A stretch of DNA of 64,000 bases from Bacteroidota bacterium (GTDB lineage: Bacteria; Bacteroidota; Ignavibacteria; Ignavibacteriales; Ignavibacteriaceae). The notes beneath the pieces are model-generated. The model had not been told where the DNA came from. It ran no database searches and was given only the letters and a program-made list of their open reading frames with translations. The translations under genes were made by a program, and so were the position numbers. The stretch lies in NCBI GenBank assembly GCA_021815365.1, contig JAKAGZ010000001.1, positions 62,001 to 126,000 of the forward strand, given 5' to 3'. Below are positions 19,319 to 29,233 of this stretch, piece by piece (the first letter of the stretch is position 1; each line of letters opens with the position of its first letter).

Positions 19319-20317
19319 TTATTTTCTAACTTTGTCTAAATACTTTGCAACGTCTTTAGCAAAGTAAGTAAGGATCATATCTGCGCCAGCTCGTTTAATA
19401 GCAATTAGTGATTCGATCATTACACGTTCTTCGTCAATCCAGCCATTTTGCCCTGCTGCTTTTATCATCGAAAATTCACCGCTTACCTGGTAAGCTGCTG
19501 TGGGCATGCCGAATTTTTCTTTTACGCGCCGTATAATATCAAGATACGGACCAGCGGGTTTAACCATAACAATGTCAGCACCTTCTTCAATATCTGTCTC
19601 AACCTCGCGTATTGCTTCATTCGCATTGGCAATATCCATCTGGTGAGACCTCCTGTCGCCAAAAGCAGGGGTTGATTCCGCAGCTTCTCTGAATGGACCA
19701 TAATATCCCGAAGAATATTTTGCGGCGTAACTCATGATAGGGATTTTTGTAAAGCCTTTATCATCCAGTGCTTTCCTGATTGCTAAAACTCTTCCATCCA
19801 TCATGTCTGAAGGTGCAACCATATCTGCACCGGCTTCAACGTGTGATACGGCTTCCTTCGCAAGTAAAAAAACAGTTTCATCGTTTAGTATTTCTTCGCC
19901 GTCGAGTATACCGCAGTGCCCGTGAGAGGTATATTCACACATACAAACATCAGTGATAACTAAAAGATTTTTTACTTCAGATTTTATTGCACGGATCGCT
20001 TTTTGGACAATTCCCTCAGGGCTATAAGCTTCGCTTCCTTTTTCATCTTTATGTTCTGGTATTCCGAAAAGAATCACAGCAGGAATTCCCAAAGCCGCAA
20101 CTTCTTTGCATTCTTTTGTAAGCTCGTCAACAGATAGCTGAAAAATTCCCGGCATTGATTTGACCGGCTTTCTGATTTTATTTCCTGGGATGACGAACAT
20201 CGGGTAAATCAAATCATTTTTAGATAATTCTGTTTCGCGGACAAGGTCTCTTATTAGAGGATTGTAACGAAGTCTTCTTAATCTCTTATTTGGATATTGT
20301 GCCATCTGAAACTCCAT
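19319..20317 (-). CDS. hemB: Delta-aminolevulinic acid dehydratase (porphobilinogen synthase)
   Basis: HemB joins two 5-aminolevulinates into porphobilinogen. The 332 residues show the zinc-ligand stretch [16 protein letters not shown], the Schiff-base Lys regions [19 protein letters not shown] and [13 protein letters not shown], and [10 protein letters not shown]. An alternative start four codons later (MAQYP) is possible. It begins one base after hemG ends and is the last haem gene of the operon. Confidence 0.97.
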
Positions 20318-20318
20318 T

Positions 20319-21695
20319 TTATGATTTCAATTGTTCAGAAATTTTATTTACAAGATCGTTTGATGTTTTTATACAGTCACCGAGAGAAATCCCGCCGCGG
20401 TAATTGCCGGCGAGAAAAATTCCCGGAAAATTCTTTTCAAATTCTTCAAAAGCTTTTTCGTGTTCTATGTAACCTATATTATATTGCGGGATAGCCTTAC
20501 TCCAGAATTTCGATGATTGAAAGACAGGCTCTCCGTTTATTTTCATTATTTCCCCGAACTCTTTCAATGTTTTATTAATTGTGTCATTTCTGTCTGAAGC
20601 TGATATTGCAGGGTTCCTTGAACCACCAATGAATAAAGTAAAAGCAGTTTTATCGTCAGGGCATCTGTTTGGAAATATAACTGAGCTCCAGATAGCGCCA
20701 AGGAAAGATTTTTTTTCTTTTGATGGAATCAAAAAACCAAAACCATCCAGCGCCCTGCCGACCGCAGATTTTTCATAACCTAAATATAAAACCAGCACAG
20801 GAGGATAAAAAATATTCAGCAAATGTTCGGCAGTTTTAATATCGAGGTCTTTCACCAGGTCTGCCGCAGCATAAGCCGGCAAAGCAGAAATAACAATATC
20901 GCAATCAATTGAGTTCCTATCATTGTTATGGATGTATTTTATTCTGTAGCCCGGCTCAGTATTTTCAATTGATGTTACTTCAGCAGCGAAGAGAACTTTT
21001 TCACCCAAATGAGCAGCAATGGTTTTTGGAAAGATCTGCATTCCCGATTTAAATGAAAACATTCTTGCAGATTGCTTGGATTTTTCTGCGCGGTTTTTCC
21101 TTTCCTTTATACTTTTAATTGTACCGATAATAAGCCCGCCGTATTTTTCTTCAAGCTCATAGAGTTTTGGGAATGCAGATTTAACGCTGAGTTCTTCTGG
21201 ATTACCAGCATACACACCCGCAACAAACGGATCTATTGCATAATCAAGAAATTCTTTTCCAAGCCGTCTTTGTACAAATTGCCCGACGCTCTGGTAATAA
21301 CCTTCCTGTGATTTACCTATTAAAGGCTCACATAGCAGTCTTAGTTTTGCTTTTGATGAAAAGAGTTTTGTTTTATATAAGCTGAATGGGTTCATTGGCA
21401 GCGGATGCAATTTGTTATCACGAAGGATATATCTTTTTACAGCCTCTCTTCCGGCATAAACCATTTCGTCTGTTAAGCCAAGCTCATCAGCCATTTGCTT
21501 GATTAAAGGGTGTGTTTCAAGTCCGCTGTTAGGACCGCGGTCGAATAAAAAGCCATCTTCAAAAAATGTTTCGATTGATCCTCCGGCGTCATCTTTTTTT
21601 TCAAGAACGGTTACATCAAAACCTTTTTTACTTAAGAGATAAGATATTGTTAGTCCGGAAATCCCCGCACCTAAAACTACAATTTTTTTATCCAT
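20319..21695 (-). CDS. hemG: Oxygen-dependent protoporphyrinogen oxidase (HemG/HemY type)
   Basis: An FAD enzyme that oxidises protoporphyrinogen IX using oxygen. The 458 residues open with the dinucleotide-binding fold [20 protein letters not shown] and contain [12 protein letters not shown] and, at the end, [20 protein letters not shown], which are typical of the HemY/PPOX group. It is translated eight bases after hemN. An oxygen-using step beside oxygen-independent HemN suggests growth with varying oxygen. Confidence 0.94.
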
Positions 21696-21703
21696 AAAAA
21701 ATC

Positions 21704-23080
21704 TCAGACAGTTCTTGAATATTTTGCAGTATCCTCTTTCCTCTCAATGTAACCGTCGAAGTTCATTGCAATATTCCTGATCAGAAGTTTGCCCATCCCG
21801 GTGACCTCAATTTTATTATCCGAGACCGAAACCAAAGCGTCTTCTTCCATTTCTCTTAAATTATTCAGTCCCCAGGCAAAATATTTTTTAAAGTCTATAC
21901 CATGTTTTTGTTCTAAGTCAGGGATAATTAATTCGAAATTGCACATTAGTTTCATAATCACATCGCGGCGGATCAGGTCATCTTCATTAAGCCGGTAACC
22001 GCGGGTAACTGGCAACGTCTCTTTATCAAGGGCATCAAAATATTCTTTTTCTGTTTTGATGTTTTGCACATAAATATTTTTTAATTGACTGATCGCAGTT
22101 ATTCCCATCGCATAAAGATCAGCTCCGGCGTGAGTGCTGTAACCCTGGAAATTCCTGTAAAGTTTTTTTTCTTTCAGCGCAATTGCAAGTTCGTCATCAG
22201 GTTTGGCAAAGTGATCCATACCAATAAAAACATATCCTGAGGAAGTTAGCTTTTCTATTGTCATTTTTAATATGTCCAGCTTTGTTTCCGGCAATGGGAG
22301 GTCTTCGGGATGAATTAACGCCATGTGTTTTTTCATCCACGGAACGTGTGCATAATTAAAAACAGCGATTCTGTCAGGAGAAATATCAATAACTTTATCG
22401 AGCGTTTCTGCAAAAGTTTCTATTGTTTGGAAAGGAAGCCCATACATCAGGTCCAGGTTAATACTGCTGAAACCGAGTTCTCTTACCCACTGAACAGTTT
22501 GCCTCGTTATGTCTTCGGGCTGGATTCTGTTCACTGCTTTCTGAACTTTTTCATTAAAATCCTGTACCCCCATACTTATCCTGTTGAAGCCATTGTTCCT
22601 TAAGGCTTCGAGGTGAGCGCGCTTTAATTCGCGCGGATCTATCTCGCAGCCGTTTTCAGAGTTATCGTTAAAATTGAAATTTACTTTTATGTATGAAGCG
22701 AGTTCATTTATTTCATCAGGAGTTAAGTGAGTCGGTGTTCCGCCGCCCCAGTGAAGCTGTGACACGAGTCTGTCGCTGAGAAGATAAGACCTTATCATAT
22801 CCATCTCTTTTTTCAGGTACTTTAAATATTCCCGCACTCTGTCACGGTTACGTGTGATTATCATATTGCAGCCGCAGAAGTAACACAGAGTGTCACAGAA
22901 AGGCAGGTGAAAATAAAGAGAAAGATCGGGAAGACCTTCGCCGTAATTTGTTCTTATTATTTCATCGAGATAATTTTCGTGTGAGAACGTATCTTTAAAT
23001 TGCGGTGCCGTGGGATAGCTCGTATACCGCGGACCTGGTTTATCGTATTTCTTAAATTTTCTTAAATCGAGTTCAAACAT
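21704..23080 (-). CDS. hemN: Oxygen-independent coproporphyrinogen III oxidase
   Basis: A radical-SAM enzyme that decarboxylates coproporphyrinogen III without oxygen. The 458 residues include YTSYPTAPQF, the cluster motif FCDTLCYFCGCN (CxxxCxxC, Cys near residue 65), LHWGGGTPTHL and NRISMGVQDFN, plus the HemN C-terminal domain. The length and the CGC after the motif favour true HemN over HemW. The GxxExxY element lies between it and hemE. Confidence 0.96.
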   Translation of the reverse strand: MFELDLRKFKKYDKPGPRYTSYPTAPQFKDTFSHENYLDEIIRTNYGEGLPDLSLYFHLPFCDTLCYFCGCNMIITRNRDRVREYLKYLKKEMDMIRSYLLSDRLVSQLHWGGGTPTHLTPDEINELASYIKVNFNFNDNSENGCEIDPRELKRAHLEALRNNGFNRISMGVQDFNEKVQKAVNRIQPEDITRQTVQWVRELGFSSINLDLMYGLPFQTIETFAETLDKVIDISPDRIAVFNYAHVPWMKKHMALIHPEDLPLPETKLDILKMTIEKLTSSGYVFIGMDHFAKPDDELAIALKEKKLYRNFQGYSTHAGADLYAMGITAISQLKNIYVQNIKTEKEYFDALDKETLPVTRGYRLNEDDLIRRDVIMKLMCNFELIIPDLEQKHGIDFKKYFAWGLNNLREMEEDALVSVSDNKIEVTGMGKLLIRNIAMNFDGYIERKEDTAKYSRTV

Positions 23081-23097: not shown

Positions 23098-23546
23098 TTC
23101 ACCACAGAGGCACGAAGGCACAGAGTTAGAAATATCCATTAATCATTCTCTTGAAACCTACAACCAATTTAGTAACATTGAAATTAATTAATAAGCCTAA
23201 TTTCTTGTCGGCTAATTTTAAATAAGTTAACAGTTGAACTTCATGAACAGGCAGCAATACTTCAACAGCTTTTAGTTCTATAATTATTTCATTCTCCACA
23301 AGGATGTCTATTTTATATTCTGCATCAAGTAAATCGCCTTTGTATTTAACCGGAAGAGATACTTGTCGTGTATAATTTATTTTTCTTAAACCGAGTTCTT
23401 TACAAAGACAAACTTCATAAACACTTTCCAATAATCCCGGACCCAAATGCCGATGAACTTCGATTGCTGAATCCAGAATAATTCCAGAAAGTTTATTTAT
23501 TTCTTCTTTGTTCAAAACCTCTGTGTCTCCGTGCCTCTGTGGTGAA
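23098..23546. mobile_element. 449-bp element with 28-bp terminal inverted repeats carrying a GxxExxY gene
   Basis: The left end (23098-23125) and the right end (23519-23546) are inverted copies of one 28-base sequence beginning TTCACCACAGAGGCAC; by eye they agree at 26 of 28 positions. The only gene between them is the GxxExxY reading frame, whose stop codon touches the left repeat and whose start lies three bases inside the right repeat. The right repeat is read through by hemE and supplies its last residues and stop. The element splits hemE from hemN. No transposase is present. Confidence 0.75.
23126..23515 (-). CDS. GxxExxY protein (PD-(D/E)XK nuclease-like)
   Basis: A 129-residue protein with the naming motif in EVHRHLGPGLLESVYEVCL and a nuclease-like core YKIDILVENEIIIELKAVE, in which Asp, Glu and Lys fit a PD-(D/E)XK active site. 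The start is TTG at 23515, overlapping the hemE stop as TTGA, so translation is probably coupled. The function of this widespread family is not established. It is the sole cargo of an element with inverted ends and has no link to haem synthesis. Confidence 0.9.
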   Translation of the reverse strand: MNKEEINKLSGIILDSAIEVHRHLGPGLLESVYEVCLCKELGLRKINYTRQVSLPVKYKGDLLDAEYKIDILVENEIIIELKAVEVLLPVHEVQLLTYLKLADKKLGLLINFNVTKLVVGFKRMINGYF

Positions 23547-24585
23547 AAGCTTTACTTTCTTCTTTTACAAGTTGGACAAGAGCTTTCGCATTCTCCGGGT
23601 CAACATCCGGAAGAATGCCGTGACCCAAATTAAAAATATGTCCACCGCCTTCGCCAAAAGAACTTAAAACTTTTCTTGTTTCTTCTCTAATCTTGTCTTG
23701 ATTTGCATAAAGAACCGTCGGGTCCAAATTTCCTTGAAGCGCTACCTTGCTGCCGATCTTTTTTCTAACTTCACCAAGGTCCATCGTCCAATCCAGCCCG
23801 ACCACATCAGCGCCTGCGCCGGCTAATCTTTCTAAGTTATAATGAACACCCTTTGCAAAAACAATTACCGGCTGATCTTTTCTTCTTATTTGAGAAATTA
23901 TTTTTTCAATATATCTTAATGAAAATTCTTCAAAATCATTCTGTGAAAGAACACCGCCCCAGGTATCAAAGATCTGAACAGCATCTGCCCCGGCTTCAAT
24001 TTTTGCTGACAAATAATCCGCATCCGCATCAGCTAATTTATCAAGGATTGAATGAGCAAGTGCGGGATTATTGTACAATAAACTTTTTACCCGTGAAAAA
24101 TTTTTTGATCCTCTGCCTTCAACCATATAAGTAAGAAGTGTCCACGGCGAACCGCAGAAACCAATCAAAGGAACATTTCCCTTCAGCTCTCTTTTTGTCA
24201 GTGCAACAGCATCGAGAACAAATTTTAAATCCCTCCCGGGGTCAATAGTTTTTAATCTTCGGGCATCATCTTCGTTCCTTACAGGGTTATGGAAAACAGG
24301 TCCTTCCCCTTCTCTTATTTCGAGCCGCATACCCATTGCCTCAGGAATAACAAGAATATCCGAAAAAATTATTGCAGCATCAACACCAATTATTTCTACT
24401 GGTTGTATTGTGACCTCAGCGGCAAGCTCTGGGGTTTTGCACATTGTCAGGAAATCAGCTTTTTTTCTTATCGCCCTGTATTCGGGTAAATATCTTCCTG
24501 CCTGTCTCATCATCCAGACAGGTGTACGCTCAACTGATTGTCTCTTACAGGCTCTTATGAATATATCGTTCTGTAGCTTGTTCAA
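23512..24585 (-). CDS. hemE: Uroporphyrinogen decarboxylase, C-terminus altered by an insertion
   Basis: HemE decarboxylates uroporphyrinogen III to coproporphyrinogen III. The 357 residues show RTPVWMMRQAGRYLPEYR, the catalytic-site region DAAIIFSDILVIPEAMG, LIGFCGSPWTLLTYMVEG and NLGHGILPDVDPEN. The normal C-terminus should end near LVKEESKAF. The last ten residues, HHRGTETQRF, and the stop codon are encoded by the inverted repeat of the neighbouring element. The catalytic domain is untouched, so activity is likely kept. Confidence 0.96.
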   Translation of the reverse strand: MNKLQNDIFIRACKRQSVERTPVWMMRQAGRYLPEYRAIRKKADFLTMCKTPELAAEVTIQPVEIIGVDAAIIFSDILVIPEAMGMRLEIREGEGPVFHNPVRNEDDARRLKTIDPGRDLKFVLDAVALTKRELKGNVPLIGFCGSPWTLLTYMVEGRGSKNFSRVKSLLYNNPALAHSILDKLADADADYLSAKIEAGADAVQIFDTWGGVLSQNDFEEFSLRYIEKIISQIRRKDQPVIVFAKGVHYNLERLAGAGADVVGLDWTMDLGEVRKKIGSKVALQGNLDPTVLYANQDKIREETRKVLSSFGEGGGHIFNLGHGILPDVDPENAKALVQLVKEESKAFHHRGTETQRF

Positions 24586-24620: not shown

Positions 24621-26012
24621 TTATTTATAATAATCTAACGTGGCTTTTACAAGCCCGTTTATCGTAAACTCATCAGGCATAACTGTAACCCGGACATTCC
24701 TGTTTTCGATAGCTGCCTTCGTTGTTGGACCGATTGCTGCAACATCAAAACCATTGAAATACTGGTTAGGATTTGTGATGTCAAGTATTTGTAAAAAATT
24801 CTTAAAAGTTGAAGGGCTTGTAAAGATAAAAAGATTCGGGCGGTTGTTTTTCAATTCATTTATTCTGTCTTTTATAGTTTCCTTTTCCGGCAGCGCAACG
24901 TTATAAACAGGTGCGGTTCTGATGACGGCGCCCTGTTCTTCAAGCCAGTCCGGCAGCTCTTCCCGACCAATTGCAGATTTTGGAATAAAAATTATTTTGT
25001 TCTTCAAATTAAATTTAGAAAGTTCACTGACCACTCCTTCGCCGCTGAAAGTGCCGGGTATAATATTTACCGGCAGCCCCTGTTTTTCACAGGCAGATGC
25101 AGTCTTATTTCCCACTGCCACGATTTTAATCTTTTCAAAGTTCAGTTTTTTGTTCAGTTCATCGCATCTTTTGCTGAACATTTTTACTGCGTGTGCGGAA
25201 GTAAAAATTATAAAATCAATTTTCTTCTCGTTTAAGATTACATCATCAAACTCTTTCCAGTTATCGGGAGGAATAATATCAAGTGTCGGGAAAATAATCA
25301 CCTTTGCGCCAAGCTGGATAAATGCTTCAGCAGATTCCCGTGACTGTTCCAGTGTTCTCGTAATCACAATAGTTTTTCCTTTTAACGGGAGCCCCCTGTC
25401 TTTGTCGAAGCTGGTGAATAATCCATGCAGAACAAAATCAAAAATTTTTTCCCTGTAATGTACCATCTCTGATTCACTATATCCTTTTTCAATTCCGCGG
25501 TAAACAGCCTCATAAATACTTCCAAGTATAAGGTCAACCGCAAAGTCTTCTTCAATGTCTCTGAACAGGTATTCCTTTTCCCCCGACCTTATTACCTCCA
25601 GAAGAATATTTCGTAAATCAGATTCAAGCTTGTTTAAATCGCTGCACAACTCGTGCTCTGCTTTCAGGGCTTCTTTCTGATACATCAGAAAAAAATTCCG
25701 GTATTTCATCAAAAACATATAAAGATGAACTATAAATGAGTGCAGAGAGTCTATGCTGCTCATTTCATATTGAACTTTGTTCTTTAGTGACTGGACAAGG
25801 TTCTCCATCCTGGTTTTCATAATGGAGAAGTAAAGCTCTTCCTTTGATTCGAAATAATTATAAACAGTACCTTTTGCAATGCGGGCAAGCTTTGCAACAT
25901 CTTCAATCATTACTTCATGGTAATTTTTTGAAGAAAAAAGCTGAGCCGCAGAGTCAATAATTCTTTTGCGTTTTATGTTTTTATTATTTTCTTTTTTTGA
26001 CGTCAGATTCAT
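24621..26012 (-). CDS. hemD: TetR-type regulator fused to uroporphyrinogen-III synthase
   Basis: A single 463-residue frame with two full-length parts. Residues about 15-66 form a TetR helix-turn-helix (RIIDSAAQLFSSKNYHEV, then IAKGTVYNYFESKEELYFSI) and about 67-200 a helical TetR ligand/dimer domain. Residues about 208-463 match HemD (GKTIVITRTLEQSRESAEAF, FTSAHAVKMF, FTSPSTFKNFLQIL, AAIGPTTKAAIENRN), which closes hydroxymethylbilane to uroporphyrinogen III. There is no other hemD in the cluster and its position between hemC and hemE fits HemD. It is likely both enzyme and DNA-binding protein. The linking segment shows no stop or frame change. Confidence 0.93.
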   Translation of the reverse strand: MNLTSKKENNKNIKRKRIIDSAAQLFSSKNYHEVMIEDVAKLARIAKGTVYNYFESKEELYFSIMKTRMENLVQSLKNKVQYEMSSIDSLHSFIVHLYMFLMKYRNFFLMYQKEALKAEHELCSDLNKLESDLRNILLEVIRSGEKEYLFRDIEEDFAVDLILGSIYEAVYRGIEKGYSESEMVHYREKIFDFVLHGLFTSFDKDRGLPLKGKTIVITRTLEQSRESAEAFIQLGAKVIIFPTLDIIPPDNWKEFDDVILNEKKIDFIIFTSAHAVKMFSKRCDELNKKLNFEKIKIVAVGNKTASACEKQGLPVNIIPGTFSGEGVVSELSKFNLKNKIIFIPKSAIGREELPDWLEEQGAVIRTAPVYNVALPEKETIKDRINELKNNRPNLFIFTSPSTFKNFLQILDITNPNQYFNGFDVAAIGPTTKAAIENRNVRVTVMPDEFTINGLVKATLDYYK

Positions 26013-26020
26013 TTAATTTT

Positions 26021-26965
26021 TTATCTAGCCTTTGCATTATTATAGATTTCATTCAGAATGTCTTTAGCCCCGGCGTTTAATAAATCGTGCGCCAAAGCTT
26101 CACCGAGTTTTTCAGGGTTTCTTTTACTTCCGCGCATTTTTTTTCTGAAAGTTAATGTACCATCAAGACTTCCGACAACGGCATCCAGATAAATTCCATT
26201 GGGTTTGACTTCTGCATACGCACCTATGGGAACCTGGCAGCCGCCCTCAAGAGTTTTCAGCAAAGCTCTTTCAGCACGCACTGCAGTGTATGTATCTTCG
26301 TGATGAATTGACTGCAGCATCTCATCAATAAATTTATTGTCACTATGAATTTCAATTGCCAGGGCGCCCTGTCCAACAGCAGGGAGAAATTCTTCTTTGC
26401 TGATGTAAGAAGAAATATATTTTGTAAGGTTCAGCCTCTCAACTCCTGCCCGCGCCAGTATAATTGCATCCCAATTTGATGTTAAAAATTTTCGGATTCT
26501 TGATGGAACATTACCACGCAGGTCTTTTGTTTTTATATCCGGGCGGAGATGTAAAAGCAGTGAACTTCTTCTTAGCGAACCTGTTCCTACAACAGCATTC
26601 TCACGCAGCTCGTCAATAGTCGTTCCTTTTTTACGTGCAATTAAAACGTCTTCAACTGGGTGCCTTTTGGTAACTGCCGATAATTTTAATCCATCGGGAA
26701 GTTCAGTCTGCAAATCTTTTAAGCTGTGGACAGCAAGGTCTATCGTTCCTTTTAATAATTCATTTTCCAGTTCTTTGGTAAACAGATTTTTATCGCCGAT
26801 CTTCGAAAGAGCGACATCGAGTATTTTATCGCCTTTTGTCCTGATAATTTTTATTTCAACAGAAACATTTTTGTTTTTTCTTTCTAGTTCTTTTTTTATA
26901 AAGTTTGACTGCCAGAGTGCAAGCTCGCTTCCGCGTGATCCGATAATAATTTTCCTTTTTGTCAT
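26021..26965 (-). CDS. hemC: Hydroxymethylbilane synthase (porphobilinogen deaminase)
   Basis: HemC joins four porphobilinogens into hydroxymethylbilane. The 314 residues contain IIIGSRGSELALWQSNFIK, LRGNVPSRIRKF and LEGGCQVPIGAYAEV with the Cys that holds the dipyrromethane cofactor. Its start overlaps the hemA stop (ATGA), so the two are coupled. HemD follows nine bases later. Confidence 0.97.
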   Translation of the reverse strand: MTKRKIIIGSRGSELALWQSNFIKKELERKNKNVSVEIKIIRTKGDKILDVALSKIGDKNLFTKELENELLKGTIDLAVHSLKDLQTELPDGLKLSAVTKRHPVEDVLIARKKGTTIDELRENAVVGTGSLRRSSLLLHLRPDIKTKDLRGNVPSRIRKFLTSNWDAIILARAGVERLNLTKYISSYISKEEFLPAVGQGALAIEIHSDNKFIDEMLQSIHHEDTYTAVRAERALLKTLEGGCQVPIGAYAEVKPNGIYLDAVVGSLDGTLTFRKKMRGSKRNPEKLGEALAHDLLNAGAKDILNEIYNNAKAR

Positions 26966-28251
26966 GGTCGTTTTTCTTCACCTGGTCTGTGATTATCAAT
27001 ACCGAAGAGTTCGCGCAGGATTCCCAGCCGTGTAGCAGATTCGGCAGTTTCCTCACCGGATTCGGCGGATTTTCTGAGTTCGGTTGTAGGGTGATGCAGA
27101 ATTTTATTGATTATTCTTTTTGTAATAATGTCTAACTTCTCAAGGTCTCCAGAAGAAAATTTATTTTTATTTTTTTCTACTTCTTCAAACCTGATGCTTT
27201 CGAAATAATCTCTCAGACTTTTTATGGTGGGCGCCGCCTGTAATGAATTATACCAGCCGAAGAAATTATTAAGCTCTTCTTCGATTATTTTTTCTACTTT
27301 TGGAATTTCTGCTTTGCGCTTTGCAAGGTTCTGTTCGACAATAATGTTTAATGAATCAATATCGTGATAAAAAACATAATCAATTTTTTTTGACTCAGGG
27401 TCAATGTCCCGCGGCACAGCAATATCCATAAGCACAAGAGGGTTAAAGTTTCTTTTTTTCATAGCCTTATGAATATCGTCTTTTGTAATTATTAACTCCG
27501 GTGAACTTGTTGCACTTAGCACAATGTCAAATTCGCTTAGCTGATCTTTAAGGTTTGAAAAGGGGATTATCTTTGCATTCAATTTCAGAGCAAGGTTTTC
27601 CGCTTTCTCTATTGTTCTGTTAGTAATTGTTATGGCTCCGATTCCCCTGTCTTTCAGATGTTTTGCAGCAGTTTCCCCTGTTTCTCCCGCACCGATTACA
27701 AGAGCAGATTTTTTATTTAAAGTTGAAAAAATCTTTTCAATTAACTGAACGGCTGCGTAGCTGACAGTAACGGCACCCTCGCTTATCTCAGTTTCGGTTA
27801 TAGCTCTCTTCCCAACAATTGTTGCTGAGTCAAAAAGTCTTTTCATAAGAAAGCCGGCAAACTGCATTTCTTCTGAGATTTGAAATGAATCTTTTACCTG
27901 TTTAAAGATCTGGTTATCGCCAATCAACAGTGAATCAATTCCTGATATAACCCTGAACAGATGTTTTACAGCTTCACGTGAAAGAAAACTCTGGAAATGT
28001 TCGGGGTTGATTTTATGCGATGATTTTTTTTCTGTTATAAAGTTCTGAATGTCAAAATAGCTGAGATTTTTATTTACAGGTATTCCATAGATTTCCGTCC
28101 TGTTGCAGGTGGAAAGGATCAGTCCTTCGCTGAATAATTTTCCCTTAGCGTCGTTAATCAGGTTTACCACTTCTGCTGAGCCAACATAGAGAGCTTCACG
28201 AAGTTCAACAGGGGCAGTGCGGTGGTTTATGGATACAGCCAGTAAATTCAT
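26962..28251 (-). CDS. hemA: Glutamyl-tRNA reductase
   Basis: HemA reduces glutamyl-tRNA to glutamate-1-semialdehyde, the first step of the C5 route. The 429 residues open with LLAVSINHRTAPVELREALY and include the catalytic Cys in LILSTCNRTEIYG, the NADPH fold ALVIGAGETGETAAKHLKDRG and the C-terminal dimer helix. It is the second gene of the operon, after a cytochrome-assembly-like membrane gene, as in several Bacteroidota-group genomes. Confidence 0.97.
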   Translation of the reverse strand: MNLLAVSINHRTAPVELREALYVGSAEVVNLINDAKGKLFSEGLILSTCNRTEIYGIPVNKNLSYFDIQNFITEKKSSHKINPEHFQSFLSREAVKHLFRVISGIDSLLIGDNQIFKQVKDSFQISEEMQFAGFLMKRLFDSATIVGKRAITETEISEGAVTVSYAAVQLIEKIFSTLNKKSALVIGAGETGETAAKHLKDRGIGAITITNRTIEKAENLALKLNAKIIPFSNLKDQLSEFDIVLSATSSPELIITKDDIHKAMKKRNFNPLVLMDIAVPRDIDPESKKIDYVFYHDIDSLNIIVEQNLAKRKAEIPKVEKIIEEELNNFFGWYNSLQAAPTIKSLRDYFESIRFEEVEKNKNKFSSGDLEKLDIITKRIINKILHHPTTELRKSAESGEETAESATRLGILRELFGIDNHRPGEEKRP

Positions 28252-28258
28252 AACAGCA

Positions 28259-29083
28259 TTAATAGAATGAATGAAAGCTTAGTGATAAAAAATTTGTAAG
28301 CATTGTTGAAAGTATAGCTATAATGAATCCAACAATTGATAAGACTACAACTTTTTTACCGCGCCATCTGCCGAGCAGTTTGCTTAAAATTCCGATTCCA
28401 TATAAAATCCAGACGATCGAAGTCCCTATTAATTTCGGATCAGCGTATGAAAAATTTGGAAATGCTTTCGGCAGCCAGATTATGCCTATCGTAATTGCAA
28501 TTGATAATAATGAGAACCCGATTATTGCAGAATAGAAGCTGAGCTTTTCCAGGACTTCAAGGTTCGGCAGGCGGTTGAATATTAATCCAAACTGGTTCAG
28601 CTTTATTTCTTTGTAGAGCATCAGGTATAAAAAACCGTACACGGCAGAAATTGTAATTCCTGAATATCCAACAAGCGCACTGAAAACGTGAATGCCGAGC
28701 AGATTGCTTTTTAGGACTTCATTTACAGCTACAATGTGTTCGATCTTTGTTGATGATATTACCTGGAAAAGAATAGAGATAATAATTATAAATGGTCCCG
28801 TTCCCCGAATATCTGTTACAAGTTCGAGTATGAAATAAGAGAAGCTGACAGCAAAAGCCAGCACTGTAAAAATTTCAAAAACATTTGTAATTGGCGGATG
28901 CCCGAAGTGAATAGTCCTGGTAATTAAATAGATTGAGTGAAGAAGCAACGTAATAAAAAGGAATAGTCTTTTTGAATTTGTGAATTCTTTTTTTCCTTTC
29001 AAAAAATCATATAAGTAAATTCCGAATGTAATGATATACAGAAAAGGAAGAATAATATTCAGATCGTCAATAAAATCAATCAT
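28259..29083 (-). CDS. CcsA/HemX-like cytochrome c assembly membrane protein
   Basis: From ATG 29083 the product has 274 residues with about eight hydrophobic helices. Family features are RTIHFGHPPITNVFEIFTVLAFAVSF, which resembles the haem-handling segment of CcsA/HemX proteins, and HVFSALVGYSGITISAVYG. An upstream in-frame ATG (29140) would add 19 residues; the inner start has AGG spaced before it and begins with a normal helix. It leads the haem operon, and HemX-like genes often stand next to hemA. Whether it serves cytochrome c assembly or HemA control is open. Confidence 0.82.
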   Translation of the reverse strand: MIDFIDDLNIILPFLYIITFGIYLYDFLKGKKEFTNSKRLFLFITLLLHSIYLITRTIHFGHPPITNVFEIFTVLAFAVSFSYFILELVTDIRGTGPFIIIISILFQVISSTKIEHIVAVNEVLKSNLLGIHVFSALVGYSGITISAVYGFLYLMLYKEIKLNQFGLIFNRLPNLEVLEKLSFYSAIIGFSLLSIAITIGIIWLPKAFPNFSYADPKLIGTSIVWILYGIGILSKLLGRWRGKKVVVLSIVGFIIAILSTMLTNFLSLSFHSFY

Positions 29084-29233
29084 AAAAAACCTGCAATGAC
29101 TAATGAGTACAAAAATAATGATTGACCAAAACAGAGTCAATTAAAATGTGACCGATAAGTCAGAAGAATTTTAACCAGAACAATCAGCTTGATAATTTAT
29201 GTCAAGATATTTTATTTGCTATTCCTTGAACTT

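Follow-up and report, generated by a model that had tools for sequence, protein, structure and literature searches.

A TetR-type regulator fused to uroporphyrinogen-III synthase in Ignavibacteria and a predicted operator at the promoter of its haem operon

The window analyzed, a 64,000-nucleotide stretch of an Ignavibacteriaceae genome (contig JAKAGZ010000001.1), contains a one-strand run of haem genes in the order ccsB/ccsA-like, hemA, hemC, tetR-hemD, hemE, a small PDDEXK_3 (GxxExxY) gene, hemN-like, hemG/hemY-like, and hemB. The genes are listed below.

28259..29083, minus strand: ccsB/ccsA-like cytochrome c assembly gene, first of the operon (Cytochrom_C_asm, E 9.9e-27)
26962..28251, minus strand: hemA, glutamyl-tRNA reductase (TIGR01035)
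26021..26965, minus strand: hemC, hydroxymethylbilane synthase (TIGR00212)
24621..26012, minus strand: tetR-hemD fusion gene, 463 aa (open frame; TetR_N and HEM4; fusion conserved)
23512..24585, minus strand: hemE, uroporphyrinogen decarboxylase (TIGR01464)
21704..23080, minus strand: hemN-like radical SAM coproporphyrinogen oxidase (Radical_SAM, HemN_C), probably of the same operon
20319..21695, minus strand: hemG/hemY-like protoporphyrinogen oxidase (Amino_oxidase, E 7.9e-54), 8 bp from hemN, probably of the same operon
19319..20317, minus strand: hemB (ALAD, E 3.6e-156), 1 bp from the preceding gene, probably of the same operon

The fusion gene is flanked by hemC (26021-26965) and hemE (23512-24585), and the pathway genes hemA, hemC, hemE, hemN, hemG, and hemB adjoin the only HemD of the genome. 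For ccsB, the ATG at 29083 is the likely start and gives a protein of 274 aa, the length of most relatives. The GxxExxY-type PDDEXK_3 gene (window 23126-23515) lies between hemE and hemN with a 4-base overlap with hemE, and it was found at the same place in several relatives (L036, L057, L069, and L098). Many relatives (L031 2751-3374 and about 25 other loci) have, between hemC and (tetR-)hemD, a conserved gene for a lipoprotein-like product of about 200 aa, which is missing from the window.

The first-pass annotation had read 24621-26012 as one uninterrupted TetR and HemD frame of 463 residues at the hemD position between hemC and hemE, with no other hemD, and both points were borne out. The frame has 463 codons, an ATG start, and zero internal stops, and a single HEM4 match was obtained in the whole genome (3,093,022 bases, 99.95% complete). 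Its parts are as follows.

25398..26012, minus strand: TetR half, residues 1-205 (Pfam TetR_N and TetR_C_4; nearest solved structures are FadR proteins)
25827..25961, minus strand: helix-turn-helix (HTH), residues 18-62, with the IAKGTVYNYF recognition region (best-conserved part of the protein)
24621..25391, minus strand: HemD half, residues 208-463, stop codon included (HEM4; 1jr2 sequence match; Foldseek)

In Pfam, TetR_N matched residues 18-62 (E 1.4e-13, above the cut-off), TetR_C_4 matched residues 66-196, barely above the cut-off, and HEM4 matched residues 227-455 (E 1.8e-51), covering profile positions 3-230 of 231. The HemD half also matched the uroporphyrinogen-III synthase structure 1jr2 with phmmer. 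The protein is thus a TetR regulator joined to a complete HemD. Structure prediction of both halves had been proposed in the first-pass annotation. The AlphaFold model, built on three sequences, was poor (mean pLDDT 63), yet Foldseek searches with it matched one half to uroporphyrinogen-III synthases and the other to FadR, which gives the fold of each half and not the inter-domain arrangement. In this low-confidence model, the TetR C-terminal domain appears all-helical, with FadR as its Foldseek match.

The same fusion, which the first-pass annotation proposed to seek in related genomes, proved to be widespread, being present across genera, in a second family, and in a family of another order. 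A search of 164 genomes of the order detected HEM4 in frames of about 463-500 residues in numerous genera of the window's own family and also in the second family; fused homologues of 462-500 aa with the same domain order and 36-68% identity occurred in dozens of genomes, by which an assembly accident or frameshift artefact was ruled out. The named relatives belong to Ignavibacteriales / Ignavibacteriaceae. A class-wide search added full-length matches with 37-44% identity in the family of another order (f13). The gene order of the haem locus was the same in the loci from fused relatives.

Two genomes, each of a further family (G233/L094 and G171/L095), have the same TetR as a gene of its own between hemC and hemD, in the order ccs-hemA-hemC-tetR-hemD. 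The idea that homologues might always be split did not hold, since the TetR-bearing relatives are mostly fused and split in these two genomes only. In other members the locus lacks a TetR, and HemD has about 260 residues. The split tetR between hemC and hemD is the likely ancestral state. A tree of five genes implies about eight changes between presence and absence of the TetR, and the unfused genome L092 is nested in a fused clade; the TetR half was therefore lost at least there, and it was probably lost several times. A phylum search with the TetR half found no close TetR relatives outside the class; beyond the fused members of the order, its matches were all of a generic TetR kind (about 1e-17, 27-33% identity).

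Some relatives show other arrangements of hemD. A frame of 568-576 residues with two tandem HEM4 domains and no TetR half was found at G070:C116:8154-9629 and G071:C99:14711-16186 (L091 9125-10843), and this HemD-HemD double protein occupies the hemD position in G071. Two genomes of genus g11 (G043 and G040), one of them a single contig and 99% complete, gave no HEM4 match; the genus also has fused relatives, and a loss of haem synthesis in the two genomes is possible. The loci L093 (G066:C27) and L074 (G078:C8) encode identical HemD proteins in genomes placed in different genera, and G066 has a fused copy as well, so that contig C27 is probably a contamination.

Both domains, TetR_N and HEM4, were matched in 32/32 aligned fused homologues. 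The mean majority fraction in these 32 proteins was 0.77 for the HTH (residues 15-62), 0.64 for HemD, 0.59 for the ligand domain, and 0.37 for the linker. A degenerate TetR half was ruled out because the HTH is the most conserved part, and the suspicion that the recognition helix might be missing was likewise unfounded. The recognition-region residues A46, K47, G48, T49, and Y51 were invariant in the fused proteins. In the HemD half, T304, Y370, and T431 were invariant in all 32 proteins and align to human T103, Y168, and T228 (phmmer against 1jr2; the numbering assumes a 21-residue tag), residues which we take to be important in uroporphyrinogen-III synthase.

In the ligand domain, H96, F107, F108, G144, and F150 were invariant or nearly so. 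The signature HLYxFxxKYxxFF (H96 to F108) is common to fused and split forms, with positions H96, F100, K103, F107, and F108 already present in the split TetRs; sensing is therefore probably a property of the TetR ligand domain and older than the fusion. H96 (28/32) is the single conserved histidine of the domain, H196 being found in 17/32.

Operators of TetR regulators are palindromes, usually close to the regulator's own gene or operon, and such a palindrome, TGACYNNNNRGTCA, is found at the ccsB-hemA-hemC-tetR/hemD-hemE promoter. A recurring palindrome was first spotted by reading the DNA before ccsB, and an unbiased dyad count followed, in which all 4-base dyads with spacers of 0-12 were enumerated with dinucleotide shuffles as the control. 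The top dyad, TGAC-N6-GTCA, was found in 22/38 fused promoters (shuffled mean 0.07) and in 0/18 unfused ones, and the best of all dyads in the shuffles reached at most 14. A symmetric position weight matrix (PWM) was built from these promoters and always trained without the genus or family tested, a site being called at a shuffle p ≤ 0.01. At this threshold, sites were detected in 34/38 fused loci, in both split loci (2/2), and in none of the 18 TetR-less loci, a contrast set that includes some close kin. The promoter features of the window are listed below.

29149..29162, unstranded: predicted operator site 1, TGACTTATCGGTCA, centred 72 bp upstream of the ccsB start, the genome's only TGACYNNNNRGTCA match
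29138..29140, minus strand: presumed -33 element TTG (by pattern; the ORF finder's start codon TTG 29140)
29110..29117, minus strand: presumed -7 element TAnnTTTG (TATTTTTG; pattern match, TTG 23 bp upstream)
29094..29113, unstranded: predicted, weaker operator site 2, around TACTCATTAGTCA, centred 20 bp upstream of the ccsB start (PWM score 10.6)

Site 1 had a leave-one-out score of 18.7 and a shuffle p of 0.003, the lowest possible with 300 shuffles. Site 2 overlies the presumed transcription start. The two sites are 52 bp apart, with the same spacing in six other genomes; among the two-site fused promoters (n = 17), the centres are 52 bp apart in seven and 53 bp in five. The arrangement TTG-N20-TAnnTTTG, presumably a promoter of the Bacteroidota type, recurs in the fused loci with the two sites around it, and the TTG at 29140 chosen by the ORF finder is probably the -33 element and not the ccsB start. 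A further inverted repeat, TTGACTCTGTTTTGGTCAA (window 29122-29140), lies between the operator sites and overlaps the presumed -33 element. In family f13 and the split genomes, one strong palindrome (CTGACCAGTCAG, CTGACCGGTCAG) is found close to the gene start instead.

Four fused loci were without a called site before ccsB. Three of them (L046, L061, and L070), all of genus g12, had no operator there, and the fourth, L042, had only a weakly scoring one (p 0.02). In the sister genomes L077 and L078 the TetR half has been lost, so that the operator-less fusions of this genus may be on their way to losing it. In L046, L061, and L070, a gene resembling SPFH/slipin by eye abuts ccsB. The five-gene tree offers eight independent pairs in which one member has the TetR half and the other lacks it; the operator shows the matching difference in seven of them and none in one, which gives 7/7 informative independent comparisons (sign test, p 0.016). 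Such a joint change of the site and the TetR half is the behaviour expected of a regulator and its site.

Genome-wide, TGACYNNNNRGTCA had one match in 3.09 Mb, at window 29149-29162 in this promoter, against eight for the reversed-pattern control. A wide regulon was rejected for this genome, as the strict operator occurs once. In each of the other TetR-carrying genomes, fused or split, 0-8 strict matches were counted, roughly as many as for the control pattern, and some of these genomes have a haem-promoter site that departs from the strict form; G161 has zero strict matches genome-wide, yet its promoter scores with the PWM. A search of the leader for an RNA regulator returned a sub-threshold IMES-2 match (19.3 versus 54.7 bits), which was taken as chance, and no curated RNA family reached the gathering score there.

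The protein is in all likelihood a working uroporphyrinogen-III synthase with a dedicated, autogenous N-terminal TetR-type regulator of the haem operon, a reading drawn from sequence comparison. The TetR half would dimerise and bind two TGAC(C/T)N4(A/G)GTCA palindromes flanking the core promoter of ccsB-hemA-hemC-tetR/hemD-hemE(-hemN-hemG-hemB). With one site directly before the -33 element and the other covering the transcription start, binding should block transcription; sites so placed fit repression, and it is because the sites lie over the core promoter that repression is preferred to activation. Most of the haem pathway would then be shut down together with the protein's own gene. The first-pass annotation had suggested that the protein may repress its own operon: the operator found in fused and split promoters, absent from unfused ones and unique in this genome, gives this strong comparative support, while the direction of control is judged from site position. 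We infer that the fusion protein binds DNA and is catalytically active, that the genes are transcribed as one operon, and that a ligand is involved. A ligand in the TetR ligand domain would tune repression, most plausibly a tetrapyrrole or a haem-status signal; haem or a porphyrin, also suggested in the first-pass annotation, is the natural guess because the regulated genes are haem genes, and acyl-CoA, as in the FadR relatives, is possible by analogy. As to origin, a tetR between hemC and hemD in the same operon would have fused to hemD.

An unlikely alternative is that DNA binding responds to hydroxymethylbilane or uroporphyrinogen III in the active site of HemD and not to a ligand of the TetR domain. 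If so, the branch-point enzyme itself would measure tetrapyrrole flux and switch the whole haem operon. The sole HemD is covalently linked to the putative operator-binding domain, and the HemD domain has been proposed as the ligand sensor in NnaR (PMC11162112). Against this, conservation is lowest in the linker (0.37), and both the ligand-domain signature and the operator are present in the split genomes with a separate HemD, so that sensing need not involve HemD.

It is likewise improbable that the TetR half senses nothing and only holds the operon product near a set point by stoichiometric autogenous feedback. The restriction of the strict operator to its own operon in this genome and the weaker conservation of the ligand domain relative to the HTH agree with such feedback, but the conserved H96, F107, F108, G144, and F150 suggest a specific function, and the H96-F108 stretch is also shared by the split forms. 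TetR proteins are, moreover, usually responsive to ligands.

TGACC/GGTCA-type half-sites are common among TetR regulators generally. It is nevertheless very unlikely that the palindrome serves another regulator, or belongs to an RNA or to the promoter, and is linked to the fusion by descent: a related core, ACYNRGT, is known from Thermus FadR (PMC5597230), but the site and the TetR half change jointly across independent lineages, the same palindrome occurs in families with a separate TetR, and the absence of any curated RNA family at the gathering score speaks against an RNA feature. Scarcely credible is a passenger TetR half, acquired through gene adjacency without a regulatory role and kept for HemD expression or solubility; relatives live with HemD alone and at least one of them, L092, lost the TetR half within a fused clade, so that HemD does not need it, while the HTH is the most conserved part and the operator follows the TetR half in all seven informative comparisons and is present in both split genomes.

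The dedicated autogenous regulator can be compared with several known systems. BirA and PutA are enzyme-repressors, or trigger enzymes, that repress the operon of their own pathway through an attached DNA-binding domain; they are different enzymes with different DNA-binding domains, and we know of no member of the haem pathway among them. The nearest precedent found for the TetR-HemD fusion is NnaR of Actinomycetes (compare NF005568/PRK07239), a single polypeptide that likewise combines a HemD-family domain with a DNA-binding one and regulates transcription. In NnaR, HemD is followed by an OmpR/PhoB-type winged helix, whereas the order is reversed here and the DNA-binding domain is of the TetR type; TetR_N is N-terminal, and no winged-helix match was obtained in the fusion protein with Pfam. 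The HemD of NnaR is reported to be inactive and accompanied by a separate HemD paralogue, and nitrate/nitrite genes are controlled (PMC6277429, PMC11162112). In contrast, the HemD here is the only one, no second copy of the NnaR fashion being found with the HEM4 profile in the 99.95% complete genome, and the predicted target is the haem operon itself.

The closest solved relatives of the TetR half, in sequence and fold, are FadR/YsiA-type TetR proteins (Bacillus FadR, 5gpa and 3whb; Thermus FadR). The Thermus FadR consensus TTRNACYNRGTNYAA has an ACY...RGT core, as in the predicted operator (PMC5597230). These proteins are free-standing, bind acyl-CoA, and control fatty-acid genes, whereas the TetR half is fused and lies in a haem operon. 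HrtR, HatR, and FhtR, also TetR family proteins in haem homeostasis, are haem sensors for efflux that haem frees from DNA (PMC11442138); they control haem efflux with no enzyme fused, whereas the fusion sits in haem synthesis, and HrtR binds haem via two axial histidines, His72 and His149, a role conceivable here for H96, the one conserved ligand-domain histidine. HemD is also one domain of a larger protein in the CobA-HemD, HemC-HemD, and HemD-HemX fusions (PMC4921024; NF005411), whose partners are enzymes or a membrane protein and not a transcription factor.

A search of literature outside most subscription journals found neither a TetR-HemD fusion nor, for Ignavibacteria, a TetR protein that regulates haem synthesis, and a regulator built into an enzyme of the operon that it controls would, as far as we found, be new for haem synthesis. 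Few bacterial lineages have a known transcriptional control of this pathway, and the search turned up no such regulator in this group. The candidate regulator is carried here by one of the pathway's own enzymes, and its predicted operator is defined sharply enough to be tested. Within one class, split, fused, and TetR-less loci form a natural series in which the assembly, upkeep, and loss of a putative enzyme-repressor can be followed together with its DNA site.
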